A stretch of 64,000 nt of DNA, taken from IMG/VR virus record IMGVR_UViG_3300043313_001220, positions 30,375 through 94,374 of that record; one strand, given 5' to 3'. Of this stretch, positions 11,361 to 22,965 are shown piece by piece. The stretch is from a virus. Numbering within the stretch: the first letter of the stretch is position 1; every line of letters starts with the position of its first letter. The notes below the pieces were generated by a model. The model made no database searches. It had not been told where the DNA came from and was given only the letters and a program-made list of their open reading frames with translations. Made by a program: the position numbers and the translations under genes.

Positions 11361-11819
11361 ATGGCCACCTGTGTCAACGGACACGTTGACCCACCCCGTT
11401 ACAAGAACGCCACCTGCAAGCGGTGCGCAATAGAGAAAGCGGACGCCTACCGGAAAGCCAATCCAGAGAAAAAGCGAATCCGCGAGGCCAAAAGGGCCCG
11501 AATCAAGAGGCGAGAGGACCGACATGCCGCGCTGGCTGCCTATGGTGGTGTCTGTGCCTGCTGTGGGGAGCACCGAGAGCCGTTTCTGGTGCTCGACCAC
11601 ATCAACGGCGATGGCGCGGAACACCGCCGCATGATGCAACCCAATGCCGGACCCCATGCGCCTGCCGGCTATCGTACTTACCAGTGGCTACGCTTGCGTG
11701 GGTACCCACCCGGCCTGCAAGTGTTGTGCGCCAACTGCAACATGGCCAAAGAACGCGGCATCTGCCCGCACCAAGAAGGAAGTGAGACCCCCCGTGGGAT
11801 TGCTGCAAGTCATAGTTGA
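11361..11819 (+). CDS. HNH homing endonuclease (CPHQ subfamily)
   Basis: A 152-residue protein beginning MATCVNGHVDPPRYKNATCK, a zinc knuckle, followed by a basic linker and an HNH domain: CACCGEHREPFLVLDHINGDG, HRRMMQ, YQWLRLRGYPPGLQVLC, CNMAKERGICPHQ. Two more genes here (13870 and 28219) share the DH-N-DG and CPHQ signature, so they are paralogous mobile endonucleases. The gene ends 26 nt inside the purZ gene. Confidence 0.85.
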   Translation: MATCVNGHVDPPRYKNATCKRCAIEKADAYRKANPEKKRIREAKRARIKRREDRHAALAAYGGVCACCGEHREPFLVLDHINGDGAEHRRMMQPNAGPHAPAGYRTYQWLRLRGYPPGLQVLCANCNMAKERGICPHQEGSETPRGIAASHS

Positions 11820-12867
11820 TGGTCAATTCGGATCGTCCGGCAAGGGCGCTGTGGCGGCACACCTGGCACGCCAAGAGCACAAGAGCGGGCGACACGTCGC
11901 CGCTGTGCGGGTGGGGGGGCCAAATGCGGGTCACTCCGCCTGTGACGACAGCGGGGTCAAGTGGGCCCTGCGTCAAATTCCGGTGGCCGTGGTGGCGGAC
12001 CCGAACGCCCAGCTCTACATCGCCGCCGGGTCCGAGGTGGACCTGGAGGTGCTGTGTGACGAGGCTGAACGGCTCGAAGCCGCTGGTCACAAGGTCTACG
12101 ACCGCCTCGTCATCGACCGGATGGCGACCGTGCTGGAGCCCCGGCACCGTGAGCAGGAGGGCGCGTTCAACCTGAACGAGCGGATCGGCAGCACGGCCAA
12201 AGGCATCGGTGCAGCCCGGTCCGAACGAATCTGGCGGACCGCCCGGGTCGTCCGCGATTTGGCCGACGACATCGAAGACGACCGGATCACCTCGTTCGCC
12301 GTCGGGAGCGTCGCGGCAGCGCTCCGCAACCATCTCGCCCAGGGCGGGACGGCCCAAGTCGAGTGTTCGCAGGGCTTCGGCCTGAGCCTCTACCACGAGT
12401 TCTACCCCCAGGTCACCTCCAGCGACACCACCACGCTCGGGTTCCTCTCGATGGCCGGGGTCGCCCCCTGGGATAAGGCCGTGACCGACTTCGAGGTCTG
12501 GGTGACCCTGCGTCCGAATCCGATCAGAGTCGCCGGGGCCAGCGGCCCGCTGCTCGGGGAGACCACCTGGGAGGCCCTGGGGCTCGCCGAAGAGAAGACC
12601 ACGGTCACCCAGCGGGTGCGGCGGGTCGGCGTTTGGGACCCGCAGTTGGCCCGGGACGCGATCGCCGCCAACGGCGGGGCAGGATTCAATGACACCGTCC
12701 GGATCGCCCTGATGATGCTCGACTATGTGGACCCCTCGGTCGCCGGGGTCACCGAAGCCAGCGCGCTGACCGACAAGGCCATCGAGTTTATCCACATGGT
12801 CCAGAAAGACGCCGGGTCGTATGTCCGGCTGGCTGGGACGTCTGACCGCACGGCGATCGAACTGTGA
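11794..12867 (+). CDS. purZ: PurZ-like N6-succino-2-aminoadenylate synthase
   Basis: A 357-residue member of the adenylosuccinate synthetase superfamily. The P-loop region reads GQFGSSGKGAVAAHLA (residues 10-25): where PurA has a catalytic Asp (GDEGKG) this protein has Ser14, as in phage PurZ enzymes. PNAGH (43-47), IGSTAKGIG (about 131), SQGFGLSLYHEFYP (about 192) and IRVAGASG (about 245) also match the phage PurZ pattern. PurZ joins Asp to dGMP with ATP; PurB then releases fumarate to give 2-amino-dAMP, the precursor of the Z base. I chose the GTG at 11794 because it sits one strand before the P-loop and follows AAGGAAG. The upstream HNH gene overlaps by 26 nt. PurB is encoded at 21499. Confidence 0.85.
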   Translation: MGLLQVIVDGQFGSSGKGAVAAHLARQEHKSGRHVAAVRVGGPNAGHSACDDSGVKWALRQIPVAVVADPNAQLYIAAGSEVDLEVLCDEAERLEAAGHKVYDRLVIDRMATVLEPRHREQEGAFNLNERIGSTAKGIGAARSERIWRTARVVRDLADDIEDDRITSFAVGSVAAALRNHLAQGGTAQVECSQGFGLSLYHEFYPQVTSSDTTTLGFLSMAGVAPWDKAVTDFEVWVTLRPNPIRVAGASGPLLGETTWEALGLAEEKTTVTQRVRRVGVWDPQLARDAIAANGGAGFNDTVRIALMMLDYVDPSVAGVTEASALTDKAIEFIHMVQKDAGSYVRLAGTSDRTAIEL

Positions 12868-13900: not shown

Positions 13901-14505
13901 CGGCTGAGAACACCCGTGTCTATGAACGGAAGACGGGGCCTCGCGCGGGCAAGCTGGAGCGCCAGTGTGTCGACTGCCAGCGCGAGGCCCAGGGGAGGTA
14001 TCGGGACTCGGGCGGTCTCGCCGCCAAGACCCGCGCACGACGCAAGGAAGTCGATCGGTCTGTGCCACAACCCCTATGCGGCTGTGGCAACGGGCGGCGG
14101 ACACTGCCGTCCACCCGCAACGGCCCCGGTGCCACGGGCCGCTGCTCGGTCTGCCACCAAGCCATCGTACGCCGTTGGCAGAAGAACAACCCCGAGGCCC
14201 ACCGCGCTGGCCAACAGCGTCGCTATCGGGCACTCATGGACGGCTTCATCACCACATATGGGGGCAGCTGCGAATGCTGCGGTGAAGCCGAACGCCGATT
14301 CCTCACCCTCGACCACGTCAACAACGACGGGGGCGGGCGCGACCGCAACCAGACTCCCGGCCTGGGCACCAGTACGATCCTGCGCCGCCTGCGCCGGGAC
14401 GGGTGGCCGCGAGACCCGACATATGCCCTGGCCTGCTTCAACTGCAACTCAGGACGCCATCTAAACGGGGGCATCTGCCCCCACCAGGAGAGGAACACCG
14501 AATGA
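13870..14505 (+). CDS. HNH homing endonuclease (CPHQ subfamily)
   Basis: A 211-residue protein with two N-terminal zinc knuckles (CKNGHGLTAEN...CVDC; CGCGNG...CSVC) and a C-terminal HNH domain: CECCGEAERRFLTLDHVNND, CFNCNSGRHLNGGICPHQ. No ATG or GTG is available before the first cysteine, so a TTG start at 13870 is used, which is weak evidence. Paralogous to the genes at 11361 and 28219. Confidence 0.75.
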   Translation: MERCKNGHGLTAENTRVYERKTGPRAGKLERQCVDCQREAQGRYRDSGGLAAKTRARRKEVDRSVPQPLCGCGNGRRTLPSTRNGPGATGRCSVCHQAIVRRWQKNNPEAHRAGQQRRYRALMDGFITTYGGSCECCGEAERRFLTLDHVNNDGGGRDRNQTPGLGTSTILRRLRRDGWPRDPTYALACFNCNSGRHLNGGICPHQERNTE

Positions 14506-15551
14506 CGACCCCCAACGGACCAGTGGCCTATATGGCCGAGCCCATCGACTTCTCGTCAGGCCCCAGCACCGACGGCCACCGTGTCACCCAGGCCCTGCCC
14601 GACTACGGCGTAGCGGTCTACCGGCCCGCGACCGCCTGGCACGGTGGGATCTACGCCCCCGGCACCGTCGAGACCATCAACCGCGCCGCACTGCTGGCCG
14701 CCGACGTGGTCATCGCCAACCTCGCCACCGGCCTGGTCAGCTACGGGACCCCGATGGAGATCGAAGCAGCCACCGCCGCCGGCATCCAGGTGGTGGTCCT
14801 GTGGCCGCCCGCGACCGCCCAATCGGTCAGCCTGCGGGCCAACCCCCGGGTCGCGTTCGTCGCGACCGCCGACGAGGCGGTCGAGCTGGCCGCCGAACTG
14901 GCCCAGGCGCACTACGCCAAACGCGAGATCGAACGGGAGCAGAAGACCGCCGACATCCGCAGTCGGCTGGATGCGCAGCGCCAGCTGCGGTTCACGATGG
15001 CGCTCGGCCACGAGGCCCCCCGGCCCGCACTGGCCGACGACAGCGGCATGGACCTGGTCACCGCCGTGGACACCGTCATCCCGCCGCACACTTTTGTAGA
15101 CATACAGAGCACCGTTACGGGTATCCAGATCCCCGAGGGCATGTGGGCGCTGATCACCGGCAGGAGCTCGGCCATCCGCAAGCGTGGCCTGCTGGTCCCG
15201 AACGGGGTGATCGACCACGGGTGGCGCGGCCCGCTGATGGCCGGGGTCTACAACCTCGGGACCGAACCTGTGACCGTCCTGGCCGGGGAGCGGGTCGCCC
15301 AAGTGATCCTGATGCCGAACACCACCGAGCAGGTCGATATCGTCAAGGTCGAACGGCTCGACCCCCACGAGCGTGGAACACGCGGCTTCGGTTCGACAGG
15401 GACCGGCCTGGGCGGGGTGATCGGCACGATGACACTTTGCTCACCCGCGAACCCCGAGCTGCACGAGCCTTACCGCATCCAGACCGCCGAGCAAGAAGCC
15501 GCCGAGTACGCCCGGGTCGACGCGCTACAGCCGGTAAACCCGATCGGCTGA
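14502..15551 (+). CDS. Nucleoside deoxyribosyltransferase-like / dUTPase fusion
   Basis: A 349-residue two-domain protein. Residues 1-135 (VAYMAEPIDFSSGPSTDGHR, LLAADVVIANL, GTPMEIEAATAAGIQVVVLW) look like a nucleoside 2-deoxyribosyltransferase/SLOG-type Rossmann domain. Residues 160-305 form a trimeric dUTPase with motifs DDSGMDL (about 180), GRSSAIRK (about 220), GVIDHGWRG (about 238), ERVAQVILMP (about 264) and RGTRGFGSTG (about 293). The enzyme would remove dUTP and supply dUMP; the first domain may act on nucleosides or only bind nucleotides. ATG overlaps the HNH stop. It fits the nucleotide remodelling theme set by PurZ and PurB. Confidence 0.85.
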   Translation: MTTPNGPVAYMAEPIDFSSGPSTDGHRVTQALPDYGVAVYRPATAWHGGIYAPGTVETINRAALLAADVVIANLATGLVSYGTPMEIEAATAAGIQVVVLWPPATAQSVSLRANPRVAFVATADEAVELAAELAQAHYAKREIEREQKTADIRSRLDAQRQLRFTMALGHEAPRPALADDSGMDLVTAVDTVIPPHTFVDIQSTVTGIQIPEGMWALITGRSSAIRKRGLLVPNGVIDHGWRGPLMAGVYNLGTEPVTVLAGERVAQVILMPNTTEQVDIVKVERLDPHERGTRGFGSTGTGLGGVIGTMTLCSPANPELHEPYRIQTAEQEAAEYARVDALQPVNPIG

Positions 15552-15812: not shown

Positions 15813-15887
15813 ATGAGCGAGGTCGATATGAGCCCACCCCCCGGTAGCATGTCCACAACAGACACCAGGCCGGGGGGTGCCCACTGA
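15813..15887 (+). CDS. Possible 24-aa leader peptide coupled to the primase-polymerase
   Basis: MSEVDMSPPPGSMSTTDTRP and four more residues; its TGA overlaps the ATG of the large gene (TGATG). The same frame is open further upstream to 15624, but that part looks non-coding. It may serve only to couple translation. Confidence 0.3.
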   Translation: MSEVDMSPPPGSMSTTDTRPGGAH

Positions 15888-18358
15888 TGGCCGCCCCCGT
15901 GCCCGCACCGGCCATCGGAGGATACGGCGAGTGGGCGTGGCAGTACCGCGAGCAAGGGTGGGTCAGTGTCCTGCCGCTGCCACACCGCAAGAAGACCCCC
16001 CCGCCGAAGGACTACACCGGTCAGGTGATCCGGAAGACCGGCCTCGCCCCGCACATCCCCGACGACACCCAGATCGCCGAATGGGTGACCGAATACCGCC
16101 GCGGCAACCTCTGCCTGCGGATGCCCGGCGATGTGATCGGGATCGACGTCGACGCCTACGAATATCAGTACCACGTCAAAGGCGACGACAAACAGCTGCT
16201 GTACGACGACCAAGGCGACCCGGTGATGGCCTGGGGGTTGAAGACCGGCGACATCACCATTGCGGAGATGGAGGACCAGCTCGGGGAGCTGCCGGCCACC
16301 TGGCGGTCATCCAGCCGCACTGAAGGCGTCTCAGGTATCCGGCTGTACCGGGTCCCGGCATCGATGTCGTGGCATGACGTCGGTGAACATGTCGAGACCA
16401 TTTGGTGGGGCCACCGATACGCGGCAGTCTGGCCATCAATCAACCCGGACAGCGACGCCCGGTACCTGTGGCTGGATGAGAACGACCTCGACTCCGGATG
16501 GGGGCCGTGGATACCGAAGGTCACCGACCTGCCGGAGCTGCCCGAGGCCTGGGTACGCCACCTGTCGCAGGAGACGGTCGTCAAATCGGCGCTGGTCGGG
16601 CCGCCCCGGCAGGAACATGCCGACCGGCCCCGGTTCCTCGGCAGCCACGACCCGTCGAAGCCACGACAGTTCACCCGCCGGCAGGCAGCCGACTTCGTGC
16701 AGCCACACCTGGACGAACTGCGGCACGCCGGGGTCGGGACGATCAACAACCGGCTGAACGACGCCGCGAAGGTCATCAGCCACTTCGTCCCGGCGGTCTG
16801 GCCGGATGTCCAGGCGCGCATCCTGCTGATGGATGCGTTGAACGCCACCGCCTACGACGGCAAGAGCTGGAAAGCCGACCGGACGATCGAATCGGCATTC
16901 GACAGCACCCTCGGCGACTGGCGGGCGCAGCTGGTGCGGGAGCCCGCCCACACCATCCCGCGCGCGGCCTCCGTGGCCATCCCGGAGCCCCCGGACGGCG
17001 ACCCGGGAGGTGGGGAGGCCACAGCGGGGTTCTGGGACGCCCACCCGGTCCTCGCGTACGTCAACGAGTACGCCATATCCTATGGGCGCAACCCGTGGGC
17101 GCTGCTCGGGGTGGTAATCGCACGGGCGATCACAGCCACCGAACCGAACATCCAACTGCCGCCGATCGGCGGAACCCCCGGCAGCCTGAACTGCTTCATC
17201 GCCCTGGTCGGCAAGTCTGGTGGAGGCAAGAGCGTCACCGCGAAGCTCGGACGGCGGTTCCTGGACGCGCGCTACGGCAACCATCCGCTGGAGACGTTTG
17301 AAGCACCACTCGGATCCGGCGAGGGCCTCGCCCACATCTACATGAAGCCCCCACCGGCACGACGCCCCAAAAGCAAGGGGGTGGACGAAGACTCAGCCGC
17401 GATCGGCCTCGGCCTGGACGGGCTCGACCCGGACCGCCCGATCCAATACCGCACCAGGGCGTTGATCAAAGCGCTGGAGATCGACGCGCTAGACTCGATC
17501 AGTGACCGCCGTGGGTCCACGCTGTCCGCGCAGTTGCGGACCGCCTGGGACGCCGACGAGCTGGGATTCTTCTATTCCGGCCACGAGAAACGACTGCCCA
17601 CCCCCGAACACGGCTACCGGATGTCGATGCTGCTGGGTGTCCAACCCGGCCGCGCCGGCACGCTACTGGACGAGGTCGACGGAGGTCTGCCACAGCGGTT
17701 CCTGTGGGTCCCCTGTGAGAACCCCGACCTGCCGGAATTCCAAGACGGCGACGAAGACGCCCCGCTGCCCGACCTGCCGTCGCTTCTGTGGACCCCCCCG
17801 GCCTACCAGGGGGTAGCGATGGTCGGACAGGACCGGGTGGTCCGCCGGGACGTCCGCCGCAACGATCGGAAGCTCTCCCGGGGCGAGGGCGACGCCCTAG
17901 ACGGCCACACGATGCTCAACCGACTGAAGGCGGCTGCGGGCCTGGCCTTCCTATTGGGGGGTTCTGCCCAGCAGCAGATGGAGATCACAGCGGAGATTTG
18001 GGAGCTGTCCGGGGTGCTGATGGCGGTGTCGGATCGCACCCGAGATGGGGTGTTGCGCCACCTGGCTGAAGCCGCCCGGGTTGCTAATGAGAAGAAGGGC
18101 TATGCGGCTGCCAAGCAGGCGATCGCCACCGAGGAGGTCATGGAAGACACGGGGATCAAGAAGGCGTTGCGGTGGTTGCGGGGCAAGATCGGGGACGAAT
18201 GGGTGACCCAGAGCTGGCTGGTCGAGCAGGCCAAGAGCACCATCTCGAAATACGTGAAGTCAGCGCTCAATCAGATGTTGGAAAACGGAGAGATCGACGC
18301 GGAGAGTTATAAGGCGGGGGGTCATGAGACACGGAAAGTGAGGCGTCGAGAGGGGTAG
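15887..18358 (+). CDS. Primase-polymerase / helicase-like replication protein
   Basis: An 823-residue protein. The N-terminal 250 residues form a bifunctional primase/polymerase (archaeo-eukaryotic primase) domain: MPGDVIGIDVDAYEY near residue 84 carries the catalytic acidic pair, and EGVSGIRLYRVP near residue 148 is the third conserved segment. The C-terminal half is an ATPase with P-loop VGKSGGGKSVTAKLG near residue 442 and the DUF3987-like segment LDALDSISDRRGSTLSAQLR. Such proteins open the origin, prime and unwind. The gene lies directly upstream of iterons and an AT-rich block (18364-18621), which supports an initiator role. No separate family A or B DNA polymerase occurs in the window. 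Confidence 0.8.
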   Translation: MAAPVPAPAIGGYGEWAWQYREQGWVSVLPLPHRKKTPPPKDYTGQVIRKTGLAPHIPDDTQIAEWVTEYRRGNLCLRMPGDVIGIDVDAYEYQYHVKGDDKQLLYDDQGDPVMAWGLKTGDITIAEMEDQLGELPATWRSSSRTEGVSGIRLYRVPASMSWHDVGEHVETIWWGHRYAAVWPSINPDSDARYLWLDENDLDSGWGPWIPKVTDLPELPEAWVRHLSQETVVKSALVGPPRQEHADRPRFLGSHDPSKPRQFTRRQAADFVQPHLDELRHAGVGTINNRLNDAAKVISHFVPAVWPDVQARILLMDALNATAYDGKSWKADRTIESAFDSTLGDWRAQLVREPAHTIPRAASVAIPEPPDGDPGGGEATAGFWDAHPVLAYVNEYAISYGRNPWALLGVVIARAITATEPNIQLPPIGGTPGSLNCFIALVGKSGGGKSVTAKLGRRFLDARYGNHPLETFEAPLGSGEGLAHIYMKPPPARRPKSKGVDEDSAAIGLGLDGLDPDRPIQYRTRALIKALEIDALDSISDRRGSTLSAQLRTAWDADELGFFYSGHEKRLPTPEHGYRMSMLLGVQPGRAGTLLDEVDGGLPQRFLWVPCENPDLPEFQDGDEDAPLPDLPSLLWTPPAYQGVAMVGQDRVVRRDVRRNDRKLSRGEGDALDGHTMLNRLKAAAGLAFLLGGSAQQQMEITAEIWELSGVLMAVSDRTRDGVLRHLAEAARVANEKKGYAAAKQAIATEEVMEDTGIKKALRWLRGKIGDEWVTQSWLVEQAKSTISKYVKSALNQMLENGEIDAESYKAGGHETRKVRRREG

Positions 18359-18431
18359 AGAGCACTCCGGGACTCCGGGACTCCGGGACCACCCGGGGGG
18401 CTGTCTGAGAACGCTGGTCCCGGAGTCAGCT

Positions 18432-18470
18432 CACACATGGCGTGACACAATCCGTGTCACGCCATGTGTG
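18432..18470. repeat. 17-bp perfect inverted repeat in the candidate origin
   Basis: CACACATGGCGTGACAC and GTGTCACGCCATGTGTG are separated by AATCC. The inner TGACAC/GTGTCA half-sites equal those found at the promoters, so the same regulator could bind here. Confidence 0.7.
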
Positions 18471-18487
18471 GTATGGCCTCTTACCCC

Positions 18488-18523
18488 GTAAAATAGATAA
18501 AAATAAATATTTATTGCTTTTCG
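18488..18523. other. AT-rich DNA-unwinding candidate
   Basis: A 36-bp block of almost only A and T with ATAAAAATAAATATTTATTG at its core, in a genome that is otherwise strongly GC-rich. Flanked by the iteron clusters. Confidence 0.65.
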
Positions 18524-18651
18524 TCGTAACGCGACCACCCTGTGCAGAACACCCCCTGGCGGTCCCGGAGTCCCGGAGTCCCGGAGTCAGGCCATCGAGG
18601 GTCCCGGAGTGGTCCCGGAGTCGCAATTACGGAGAGTGACCGACACGCGAG

Positions 18652-18680
18652 TTGCCACGCTGGAAAGGCCGCTGTAGGGT
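18652..18680 (+). promoter_or_regulatory. Promoter downstream of the origin
   Basis: TTGCCA, 17-nt spacer, TAGGGT, preceded by CGACAC 12 bp before the TGCCAC element. The GTG at 18688 follows after seven nucleotides. Confidence 0.7.
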
Positions 18681-18687
18681 GGACGGC

Positions 18688-18915
18688 GTGACGACACCGA
18701 GCAAGACCACATGGGACACCGTCGAGTTCCGTCTGAACAGAGCCGCCAAGCTGATGTCCGAAGTGGACAGCCTGTTCCAACTCGGATTCGACACCACCGA
18801 GGAGGATGCCGCCAACCAGATTGCCCTTACCCAGCTGCTGGTCGCGGCGGCTAACGCCCACCTCCGGATCGCCGAGATGGAGATGACCGGCCACGCCTTC
18901 CGCCGCCACCAATGA
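18688..18915 (+). CDS. Small hypothetical protein, leaderless GTG start
   Basis: A 75-residue helical, acidic protein: VTTPSKTTWDTVEFRLNRAA and EEDAANQIALTQLLVAAANA. It starts with a GTG seven nucleotides from the -10 box, so translation probably begins at the 5' end of the mRNA. Unknown function; position beside the origin suggests a replication accessory role. Confidence 0.65.
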   Translation: MTTPSKTTWDTVEFRLNRAAKLMSEVDSLFQLGFDTTEEDAANQIALTQLLVAAANAHLRIAEMEMTGHAFRRHQ

Positions 18916-20195: not shown

Positions 20196-20203
20196 CACGC
20201 CGC

Positions 20204-20232
20204 TTGCCACGCCCGGTGGCGTGTGGCAGGAT
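20204..20232 (+). promoter_or_regulatory. Promoter reading into the long non-coding interval
   Basis: TTGCCA, 17-nt spacer, CAGGAT, with TGACAC 12 bp upstream of TGCCAC. It lies right after the 18912-20195 gene and would produce an RNA with a leader of about 1.26 kb before purB. Confidence 0.65.
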
Positions 20233-20239
20233 AGGGGGA

Positions 20240-21482
20240 CAAACCAGGCCAGTGCGCCTCCCGACTAGCCAGTTCGTACCACACGACAAGCCTGCCCCCC
20301 TCGCATCCGCTGCACACCGACAAGTCGTGCCGCCGCAAGCCCAGCCCACCCCCCGCTCGCCGACACATCTAGCCGTACCACACGACAAGCCTGCCCAGTG
20401 CAATGCCGCCCAGCCTTGACGACACCCCAGACCGACATATGCCCGACTGTTCACATCCACCCTACCGCCGTCCGACACCGCACGCCACACCCTCGCGCTC
20501 CGTACGACCAACCTCTCCGAATCTTGCCGACGCGCACGACATGCCGCTCTCGACACCGCCCGACCCGCACCGACACAGCACGCCGGTCCGACCCAACCGA
20601 CACGCCCGGCCACCGCAGGACTCACGACAGATCTGCCCAGCGCTCACCCATGCGACTACCCGTCCCACAGCTGGTCGGCCCCTACCCCGACACCCGACAT
20701 GGCCCATCTGTCCCAGCCGCCCGACATGCCATCCCAGCCGAGTCCTCCCCGACACTCCACCCTCAGCCGCAACGCCCCGAGACGACAGATCTGTTCCGCC
20801 CACCCCATGTGACTACCCTGCCCGGCCCTGCTCCAATATCGACTACCCGACGCAACCCCAGAGCCCCCGCTGACATATCCAGCCCGCCCGCCCCAGGCGA
20901 CCAGCCACCCCAGCTCCTGTGTCGACAACCCGATCGGCGTCACGCCAGACCCAACCCGACGACAGCCCAGACCCGCACTGTCTTACCCCGTGCTCGGACC
21001 GCCCATCCCACCCGACAAGCCCACCCGGGCCGGTACAACCCCAGCCGTGCCCCACCCCCCGACTACCCTACACACCCCAGTGCGGATCCGACACGCCATC
21101 TCATCGCACCGCCGCCGACTACCCCGGCCCTTCGTGCCCTGTCTCCGACGACCCGTGCCATCCGACAAGCCCAGCCGCGCCGATGCAACCCCACTGCGAC
21201 CATCCATCCCGCGTCATTGCGGGCCCGACACGCCATCCCTGGCATCCCCGACCCGGTACCGACAAGCCCAGCCGCCGCGCTTCATATCGACAAGCCGACC
21301 CACGCCACCCCGTGTCCTCTCCCGGCCCGTCCGACAGTGCGTCCCCACGCCGCCCAGTGGCTTCCCCACCCATCCCCCATGGCACGCCCGATCAAAGCGG
21401 CGTACTGACGAGCCCGTCCCCACCCGGCCCCCCGACAAGCCGAGCGAACTCCAACCCAGCCCCTACGACAACCCGCTGGACC
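20240..21482 (+). repeat. 1.2-kb non-coding region with dozens of CGAC-type short repeats
   Basis: The plus strand is extremely C-rich and G-poor. CGACAAGCC occurs seven times (near 20284, 20383, 21013, 21162, 21260, 21288, 21432), with variants CGACATGCC, CGACACGCC (three), CGACAGATCTG (two) and CGACTACCC (four), usually 15-40 nt apart. The long open frames here (up to 336 codons, several frames at once) are Pro/Arg/Thr low-complexity and lack ribosome sites, so I treat them as artefacts of the skewed composition. The transcript would be unstructured and C-rich, like a Rho-loading region. It separates two genes transcribed in the same direction. Confidence 0.6.
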
Positions 21483-21498
21483 GATAGGGAAGAGAGAT

Positions 21499-22965
21499 AT
21501 GGACAGGCGATACGAGAGTGCCGATGTCACAGCGATCTGGAGCGACCAGGGCCGCAACCTGGTCGAACGCAGCATCTGGGTCGAGGTGATGCGAGCCCAG
21601 CGCGAAGCCGGAATCGACATCCCGGAAGACCAGATCGACGCGTACGCCGACCTGGCAGCCAGCCAGGCACTGCTGGACCCGGACCACGAGGAAGCCCTGC
21701 TCGAAACGCAGGACATCGCCGAGCTGGAGAGAGAGACCAAACATGACCTGTACGCCCGACTGCGGTGGTTCAACGAGAGTGTCGGAGGCGACCACGCCCA
21801 CCGCGGGTTGACCTCGGCCGACATCACCGAGAACACCCAGCAGATCCAGATCGTCGCCTCCGCCGAACTGCTGCTAGAACACGCTGAGCAGGTCCTGCGC
21901 CGGATGTACGAGCGTGCCGGGGTGTTCGCCACGGTGCCGATCGTCGCCCGCACCCATGGCCGACCCGCGCAGCTGACCACCATTGGCAAGCGGATCACCG
22001 ACTGGATGCAGGAGCTGATGGGGGCGATGGTCACTCTCCAGGGGGCCATCGAAGGTTACGTGCCGCGGGGGATCAAAGGCGCGGTCGGCACCAGTGCCGA
22101 CATGGCGCGGACGTTGCTGTCCGGCCTGCCGGAGGGCAGCCCCGCCAGCAGGTGGGTGGCCGCCCGCCTGGCCGCCGGCACGCTGGACGACCGGGTGTCG
22201 TCCAAGCTGGCAGGCGAGACCACATCGATGCTGTCGACCGGGCAGTGTTACCCACGCTCGGCCGACCTGCCGATCATCTCCGCGACGTTGCAGCTCGCCG
22301 CCGCGTGCGGCACGGTCGCCACTGCCGTGCGGCTGATGTCCGCGCTCGGCCTGGCGGTCGAGAACCCCGACGCGCATGTCGGGTCGTCGGCCATGCCCCA
22401 CAAGAGCAACCCGCGCTACAGCGAGCGGGTCTGCAGCCTCCAGGTGGTCGCACGCGGGTATGCGGGAATGTTGCAGGAGACCGCCGGCACGCAGTGGCTG
22501 GAAGGTGACGTGTCGACCTCTGCGGCCCGCCGGATCGCCCTGCCGGGGCTATTCCACACGGTGGATTCGATGCTGGCCAACACCGCCTGGGTGTTGGACC
22601 ATCTGGTGTTCGACCTGGAGGCGATCAAGGACGAGCGCGACCTGTGGATGCCGGAGATGGCATCCGGCGCGCTGTTGGCCGCACTGGTCGAGAACGGGGT
22701 GCCACGTCAGAAGGCACACGAGGTACTGCGGCACCATTATCGGCAGATCGGCGGCCCGGACTGCGAGAGCGACCGATCGGGGACGCTGATCTACCACCTG
22801 ACCAGTGAAGACGCAGAGTTCCGGCTGACTGCGGAGCAGACCCAGGCCGCGTTCGACCCGGAGATGTTGGTTGGTTCTGCGGTGGCGATCGTGGAGGCTG
22901 TGGTCGGTGCGGAGCTCGGCGAGCTGCTGGATGCCGACCCGGAATGGCCTGGCGACCTGGTGTGA
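21499..22965 (+). CDS. purB: Adenylosuccinate lyase
   Basis: A 488-residue member of the fumarase/aspartase superfamily. The signature loop GSSAMPHKSNPRYSE (about residues 295-309) contains the catalytic Ser, and RTHGRPAQLTTIG (about 151) contains the general-acid His; HRGLTSADITENTQQ (about 98) is the third conserved region. The enzyme removes fumarate from adenylosuccinate or its 2-amino-deoxy form, the second step after PurZ. Z-genome phages mostly rely on host PurB, so a phage copy is notable. Ribosome site AGGGAAGAGAG precedes the ATG. It follows the long CGAC-repeat leader. Confidence 0.92.
   Translation: MDRRYESADVTAIWSDQGRNLVERSIWVEVMRAQREAGIDIPEDQIDAYADLAASQALLDPDHEEALLETQDIAELERETKHDLYARLRWFNESVGGDHAHRGLTSADITENTQQIQIVASAELLLEHAEQVLRRMYERAGVFATVPIVARTHGRPAQLTTIGKRITDWMQELMGAMVTLQGAIEGYVPRGIKGAVGTSADMARTLLSGLPEGSPASRWVAARLAAGTLDDRVSSKLAGETTSMLSTGQCYPRSADLPIISATLQLAAACGTVATAVRLMSALGLAVENPDAHVGSSAMPHKSNPRYSERVCSLQVVARGYAGMLQETAGTQWLEGDVSTSAARRIALPGLFHTVDSMLANTAWVLDHLVFDLEAIKDERDLWMPEMASGALLAALVENGVPRQKAHEVLRHHYRQIGGPDCESDRSGTLIYHLTSEDAEFRLTAEQTQAAFDPEMLVGSAVAIVEAVVGAELGELLDADPEWPGDLV

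Follow-up and report, generated by a model that had tools for sequence, protein, structure and literature searches.

The gap between positions 18359 and 18651 of the analysed stretch of phage DNA (64 kb in total, called the window below) is very probably the origin from which the phage replicates its DNA, with the product of the gene just upstream as the protein that recognises it. It extends from the stop codon of a gene for an 823-amino-acid primase-polymerase (15887-18358, plus strand), referred to here as the initiator, to the next plausible gene at 18652. An origin is the best reading of this gap because of the comparison with the loci of related initiators. The original prediction, an iteron origin served by the product of the gene at 15887, is supported by the recurrence of the architecture, the co-variation of the repeats with the C-terminal region of the initiator and a modelled winged helix, but not in its premise of a 2-aminoadenine genome (Z-DNA). 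No description of such an origin family was found in the open-access literature, to which the search was confined (subscription papers were outside its scope).

Repeat Architecture of the Gap

Nine copies of ACTCCGGGAC lie in the gap directly 3' of the primase-polymerase gene, three of them forward and six as the reverse complement GTCCCGGAGT. The left block begins immediately past the initiator stop codon and consists of three forward copies with an 8-bp period (18364-18389, plus strand; starts at 18364, 18372 and 18380), followed by an inner inverted copy (18417-18427, minus strand; start at 18417). The right side carries a block of three GTCCCGGAGT copies, again with an 8-bp period (18562-18588, minus strand; starts at 18562, 18570 and 18578), and two more copies with starts at 18601 and 18612 (18601-18622, minus strand). 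Enclosed by them are a perfect 17-bp inverted repeat with a 5-nt loop (18432-18470) and an AT-rich block (18489-18524), which is proposed to be the unwinding element, so that the order of elements reads >>><-AT-<<<<<. The original prediction had described nine iterons in both orientations around the inverted repeat and the AT block, and the coordinates are exact. Two of its details need correction: the 36-bp AT block is correctly placed and AT-rich but not pure AT (31/36 A+T), and the opposed flanking iterons do occur in both orientations, but one reverse copy sits on the left side.

The composition and the repeats of the gap far exceed chance. The rest of the 64-kb window contains no further copy of the iteron 10-mer, and nine of the 12 matches to GACTCCGGGAC with at most one mismatch in the 94-kb record fall in the gap. 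In any other 260-bp stretch of the window, an 8-mer is repeated at most four times, and simulated order-3 Markov genomes (n = 30, 64 kb each) reached a maximum of five repeats and never exceeded it. No other 36-mer of the window is as rich in A+T as the AT block (the runner-up has 23/36), and no other perfect inverted repeat with a loop of up to 20 nt is as long as the 17-bp one. This repeat contains no iterons and is a candidate single-strand hairpin, with a folding energy of -22.5 kcal/mol as single-stranded DNA (z = -8). Clustered iterons with an adjacent AT-rich element beside an initiator gene are the general hallmark of iteron origins, and the gap shows this combination. To the right of the AT block, the best candidates for a degenerate forward iteron agree in only 5-6 of 10 bases and are unconvincing; the GC skew shows no clean switch across the gap, and an Rfam scan gave no match.

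A second conspicuous region of the window is a 1.3-kb C-rich stretch (20196-21498; 47% C, 21% G) with no convincing gene. CGAC[AT] words, all counted on the plus strand, are often spaced about 28 bp apart in it.

A Primase-Polymerase with a Predicted MCM-Like ATPase Domain

The initiator combines an archaeo-eukaryotic primase (AEP) primase-polymerase domain, a DUF3987 ATPase domain and a C-terminal winged helix; PF09250 (2.1e-13) and PF13148/DUF3987 (9.8e-7) were the only Pfam families found. The AlphaFold2 model, built from 41 sequences, has a pLDDT of 82.7 and a pTM of 0.58. The Prim-Pol domain (residues 19-220; 15941-16546, plus strand) contains the DVD metal motif, and the family profile weakly matches the prim-pol structure of pRN1 ORF904 (E 0.0014; ORF904 structures 1ro0/1rni/3m1m). 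The catalytic histidine of the primase motif is replaced by arginine (SGIRLY). Damage to the domain was considered and rejected, since SGIRLF or SGIRLY is common to many relatives and is a feature of the clade.

The ATPase domain (residues 384-725; 17036-18061, plus strand) contains the Walker A sequence GKSGGGKS and is modelled with an MCM-like AAA+ fold. Comparison of the domain model with the MCM chain 6mii_B gave a VIA-align Z of 16.3 (rmsd 4.4, 273 aligned residues), and all 50 structural matches listed were MCM-type chains. Neither SF3 nor SaPI Rep structures were among the matches listed in the ATPase and winged-helix searches, from which no exclusion follows. The model thus makes an MCM-like AAA+ domain a possible fold for DUF3987, a Pfam family still called unknown. 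DUF3987 was earlier predicted to be a helicase that replaces MCM, RepA or DnaB beside AEP primases (PMC5862659), and the modelled fold fits this prediction.

The predicted C-terminal winged helix (residues about 754-823; 18146-18355, plus strand) is the proposed iteron-binding domain. Its pLDDT is mostly above 85, and residues 740-823 modelled alone gave the same winged helix with a pLDDT of 89.5. A structural search returned generic matches only, the best of which was archaeal Rpa2 (Z 9.9, rmsd 2.7, 73 aligned residues), and residues 729-813 weakly match phrog_345, annotated as 'replication initiation O-like' (E=0.001). The recognition helix comprises residues 784-799 (18236-18283, plus strand), and the N-terminal end of this helix lines up with the SRDR specificity motif that is described below for relatives.

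Recurrence behind Related Initiators

The closest annotated relatives of the initiator, encoded by Gordonia phages such as Reyja, are about 35% identical to it. A comparison of the element in related phages, as the original prediction had proposed, revealed the same architecture in two sets of genomes. Of 12 phage and prophage records examined, 11 have inverted short repeats after the initiator stop codon, which flank an AT-rich block in most cases. Most lineages have a word of their own, such as CCAGCAAACC in BetterKatz, CCTGGAAA in Reyja, CCCTCGGAAC in TPA4 and ACGTGTGG in CL31. Corynephage CL31, which has an AT-rich host, fits less neatly, with copies mostly in one orientation, and the cluster O phage Catdawg has no such repeats after its initiator gene. 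In the cluster of Catdawg, AT-rich elements with repeats are located elsewhere and were regarded as plausible origins by their describers (PMC4351075).

A single-protein search of IMG/VR yielded no close relatives of the initiator. From an alignment search, the best 80 of 125 candidate loci were taken, 75 of which had at least 200 bp downstream of the stop, whose position was read from the frames and not from annotation. An 8-mer in at least four copies within 300 bp after the stop was found in 47 of the 75 loci, and in 46 of these 47, the repeat exceeds that in every other 300-bp window of the same locus; such a strong repeat is absent in the remaining 28. The canonical order is >><-AT-><<, with adjacent direct copies mostly 8-11 bp apart, and the order found in the window is a variant in which no clear forward copy stands on the inner right side. 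The AT blocks of the other origins contain 18 to 32 A+T in 36 positions. As far as the sequences tell, the architecture is conserved, while the repeat word is not.

In Reyja, Jojo24, TinyDot, prophiGD12-2 and phiGD17-1, small annotated 'hypothetical proteins' cover the predicted origins (L033:6271-6501, L044:5218-5448, L037:5224-5574, L040:5221-5472 and L038:5215-5334); these are probably not genes.

A plasmid search with the initiator protein gave only five weak, partial matches, and direct DNA similarity to phages was limited to a chance AT-rich match. Runs of CTCCGGGA occur in two viral and 26 bacterial contigs, including Streptomyces, Nocardia and other genomes (L007-L032, e.g., L028:3294-3479). 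These runs were rejected as instances of the same origin and look like unrelated tandem repeats, as they have essentially one orientation and no relative of the initiator was found in the examined stretches around them.

The Repeat Word Follows the C-Terminal Region of the Initiator

A set of 42 non-redundant initiator/repeat pairs was used to study co-variation. Word similarity correlates with C-terminal identity when the ATPase core is held constant (partial rank correlation 0.267; 0/2000 permutations) and not with ATPase-core identity when the C-terminus is held constant (0.014; 814/2000 permutations), in a permutation test that takes loci as exchangeable although loci of one viral clade are not independent. 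The repeat word thus tracks the C-terminal region of the initiator and not its ATPase core, and word and protein seem to evolve jointly. The Mycobacterium abscessus prophages GD17-1, GD05-1 and GD12-2 have nearly the same cores (0.98-1.00 identical), C-termini that are only 0.48-0.80 identical and three different words, which would represent natural domain exchange or fast divergence.

GGAC words occur in 17 of the 20 pairs whose recognition helix contains [SGN]RDR (or GRER) and in 4 of the 22 without the motif (Fisher p = 3e-5), a rule that was set after seeing the data and a p value that leaves relatedness in. On the core tree, TSRDR is found with GGCC in L036, L122 and L097, which are separate tips that each stand beside a GGAC relative. 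L072 and L124, which combine AYRDR with GTAC, are neighbours of L067 and L093 with GGAC. Two changes of helix residues recur on the tree, each with the same change of the word. These parallel changes are few, but they would be hard to explain otherwise and suggest that the recognition helix touches the bases that vary. The recognition helix of the window's initiator begins with KSTIS (KSTISKY) and its word is CTCCGGGAC; neither has a close relative in the set, and the link from helix to word is indirect for this initiator.

Alternative Explanations

Several other functions of the array were considered. The array could be an autoregulatory operator or a copy-control site, through which the initiator limits its own expression or pairs DNA molecules while replication starts elsewhere. 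It lies directly after the gene, such a site would likewise co-vary with the winged helix, and plasmid iteron arrays often regulate too. However, the array is located 3' of the gene, a sigma-70 scan of 18200-18900 gave no promoter-like site, and the recurrent central AT block would be left unexplained, which makes a regulatory site very unlikely. The co-variation and the central position of the AT block also argue against a centromere for partition or DNA maintenance to which a different protein binds, since the identity of the word follows the C-terminal region of the initiator itself. Some centromeres resemble clustered inverted repeats, but no computed result favours a centromere and no partition gene was recognised among the scanned neighbours; we consider it the least probable of the proposals. 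Hardly more credible is the idea that the true origin is the C-rich stretch at 20196-21498 and that the iterons are accessory. This stretch has the strongest GC skew of the window and carries 34 CGAC[AT] words on one strand, with 22 occurrences of CGAC[AT]NNCC compared to a mean of 1.0 elsewhere. It lacks an AT block, however, and similar C-rich arrays are found in IMG/VR contigs (loci L198, L219, L239 and L194) in whose records no relative of the initiator was found.

A further alternative concerns only one part of the gap and not its reading as a whole. The 17-bp inverted repeat alone could be a terminator after the initiator gene, with the origin formed by the iterons and the AT block only, and this is quite conceivable, although we would not favour it. 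The hairpin is stable and located near the gene end, and the relative CL31 has a T-tailed hairpin at the corresponding place near the end of its initiator gene. On the other hand, the stem in the window is not followed by a T-run, a terminator scan was negative on both strands, and non-iteron hairpins in a similar position in L048 and L079 have stems that differ by a paired change of C-G to A-T. Such a hairpin is not general among the related loci. In the window, it may serve in priming or act as a terminator that lacks a T-run.

Proposed Mechanism and Comparison with Known Replicons

From the DNA anatomy, the recurrence behind related initiators, the co-variation of repeat and C-terminus and the predicted folds, all of which are direct results, we infer the following activities, from DNA binding and melting to the loading of rings and priming, together with whatever part the hairpin may play. 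Copies of the initiator would bind both iteron blocks via the C-terminal winged helix. The MCM-like AAA+ (DUF3987) domains would then form rings on these inverted blocks and open the intervening AT block; two opposed rings would suit the inverted layout. Subsequently, the rings would load and unwind the DNA, probably bidirectionally given this layout, and the fused AEP domain would prime the exposed strands, possibly with the 17-bp hairpin as an aid.

The module would work like SaPI Rep/ori and SCCmec Cch2 but is not a member of this group because its helicase family differs. In SaPI Rep and SCCmec Cch2, the C-terminal domain of the helicase binds iterons directly downstream of its own gene (PMC7581432). 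Several short iterons that directly follow the initiator gene are common to the SaPI/PICI and SCCmec systems and the window; for the C-terminal domain of the initiator, co-variation with the repeats and a predicted winged helix were observed. SaPI and SCC Reps are DUF927 or D5/Primase_Cterm proteins (PMC7581432), whereas the initiator has a DUF3987 domain with an MCM-like model and a fused AEP Prim-Pol domain. The prim-pol replicon of the archaeal plasmid pRN1, with which the window shares gene order, depends on sequence 3' of the replication gene (PMC4234260), and ORF904 likewise unites an N-terminal AEP prim-pol, a helicase and a winged helix in one protein. The essential pRN1 element, however, is a stem-loop of about 100 nt, whereas iterons and the AT block dominate in the window and the hairpin is small; the pRN1-type helicase domain is SF3, and the structural matches listed for the initiator were MCM-type chains.

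RSF1010 oriV combines iterons and ssi hairpins with RepC, RepA and RepB' (summarised in PMC4234260), three proteins in place of the one polypeptide proposed here. It resembles the gap in that iterons are accompanied by a hairpin from which priming could be directed, and the priming role of the 17-bp hairpin is only an analogy to this scheme. Lambda-type O/ori systems and iteron plasmid origins also have an initiator on iterons beside an AT-rich element, and the weak PHROG match of the C-terminal part adds a likeness to lambda O. However, lambda O is not a helicase and the lambda ori lies inside the O gene.

2-Aminoadenine

The original prediction had proposed that an AT-rich melting element would be more stable than usual if the genome carries 2-aminoadenine, because Z:T pairs have three hydrogen bonds. 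The presence of purZ was confirmed (NF038379, 325 bits compared to a cut-off of 300; PHROG 1211), and the phage also encodes a PurB-like adenylosuccinate lyase; the two genes are located at 11788-12867 and 21499-22965 of the window. In another frame (14496-15548), a dUTPase is fused to a weak nucleoside 2-deoxyribosyltransferase-like domain that scores below the Pfam cut-off. datZ, mazZ and purZ were described as co-conserved in Z phages (PMC8342488), but searches of the 94-kb record, which may be incomplete and could encode divergent enzymes, gave no match to HD (PF13023, PF01966), MazG-like (PF03819) or PolA proteins. Cyanophage S-2L likewise combines purZ and a PrimPol in one phage. S-2L carries datZ and mazZ (PMC8342488), neither of which was found in the record studied here, and the C-terminus of its PrimPol is VirE-like (PMC8065100) where the initiator has DUF3987. 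On its own, the S-2L PrimPol does not distinguish between A and Z, for which it depends on DatZ (PMC8342488, PMC8065100). One other purZ-positive relative was found (L100 in G036; purZ 48% identical), and its origin is of the same type, with an AT block of 25/36 A+T that shows no systematic shift compared to other origins. Because datZ, mazZ and PolA are unmatched and the AT block of L100 is within the usual range, the sequence says nothing on a special Z-DNA melting element, and the 2-aminoadenine premise for this genome is weak. If the genome does carry 2-aminoadenine, the melted block would consist of Z:T pairs; the question of how Z-DNA is melted follows only if modified DNA is demonstrated.

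Implications for Actinophage Replication

Actinophages with such an initiator gain a candidate place for their origin, where some public records annotate small hypothetical proteins. The 42 pairs extend the prediction to a whole family of origins, each with its known initiator, and in several of them the differences amount to one or two bases of the word and a few residues of the helix. These natural pairs make the co-change of initiator and origin, and the separation from the pairs of competing phages, directly testable. More tentatively, and with the odds rather against both parts holding together, a bacterial virus would encode a single polypeptide, composed of an archaeo-eukaryotic primase, an MCM-like ring helicase and a winged helix, that loads two rings in opposition at an origin with inverted iterons, and the first few residues of the recognition helix would specify the origin word in a code that can be read and that evolves. 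The system may be a bacterial-virus counterpart to MCM loading.
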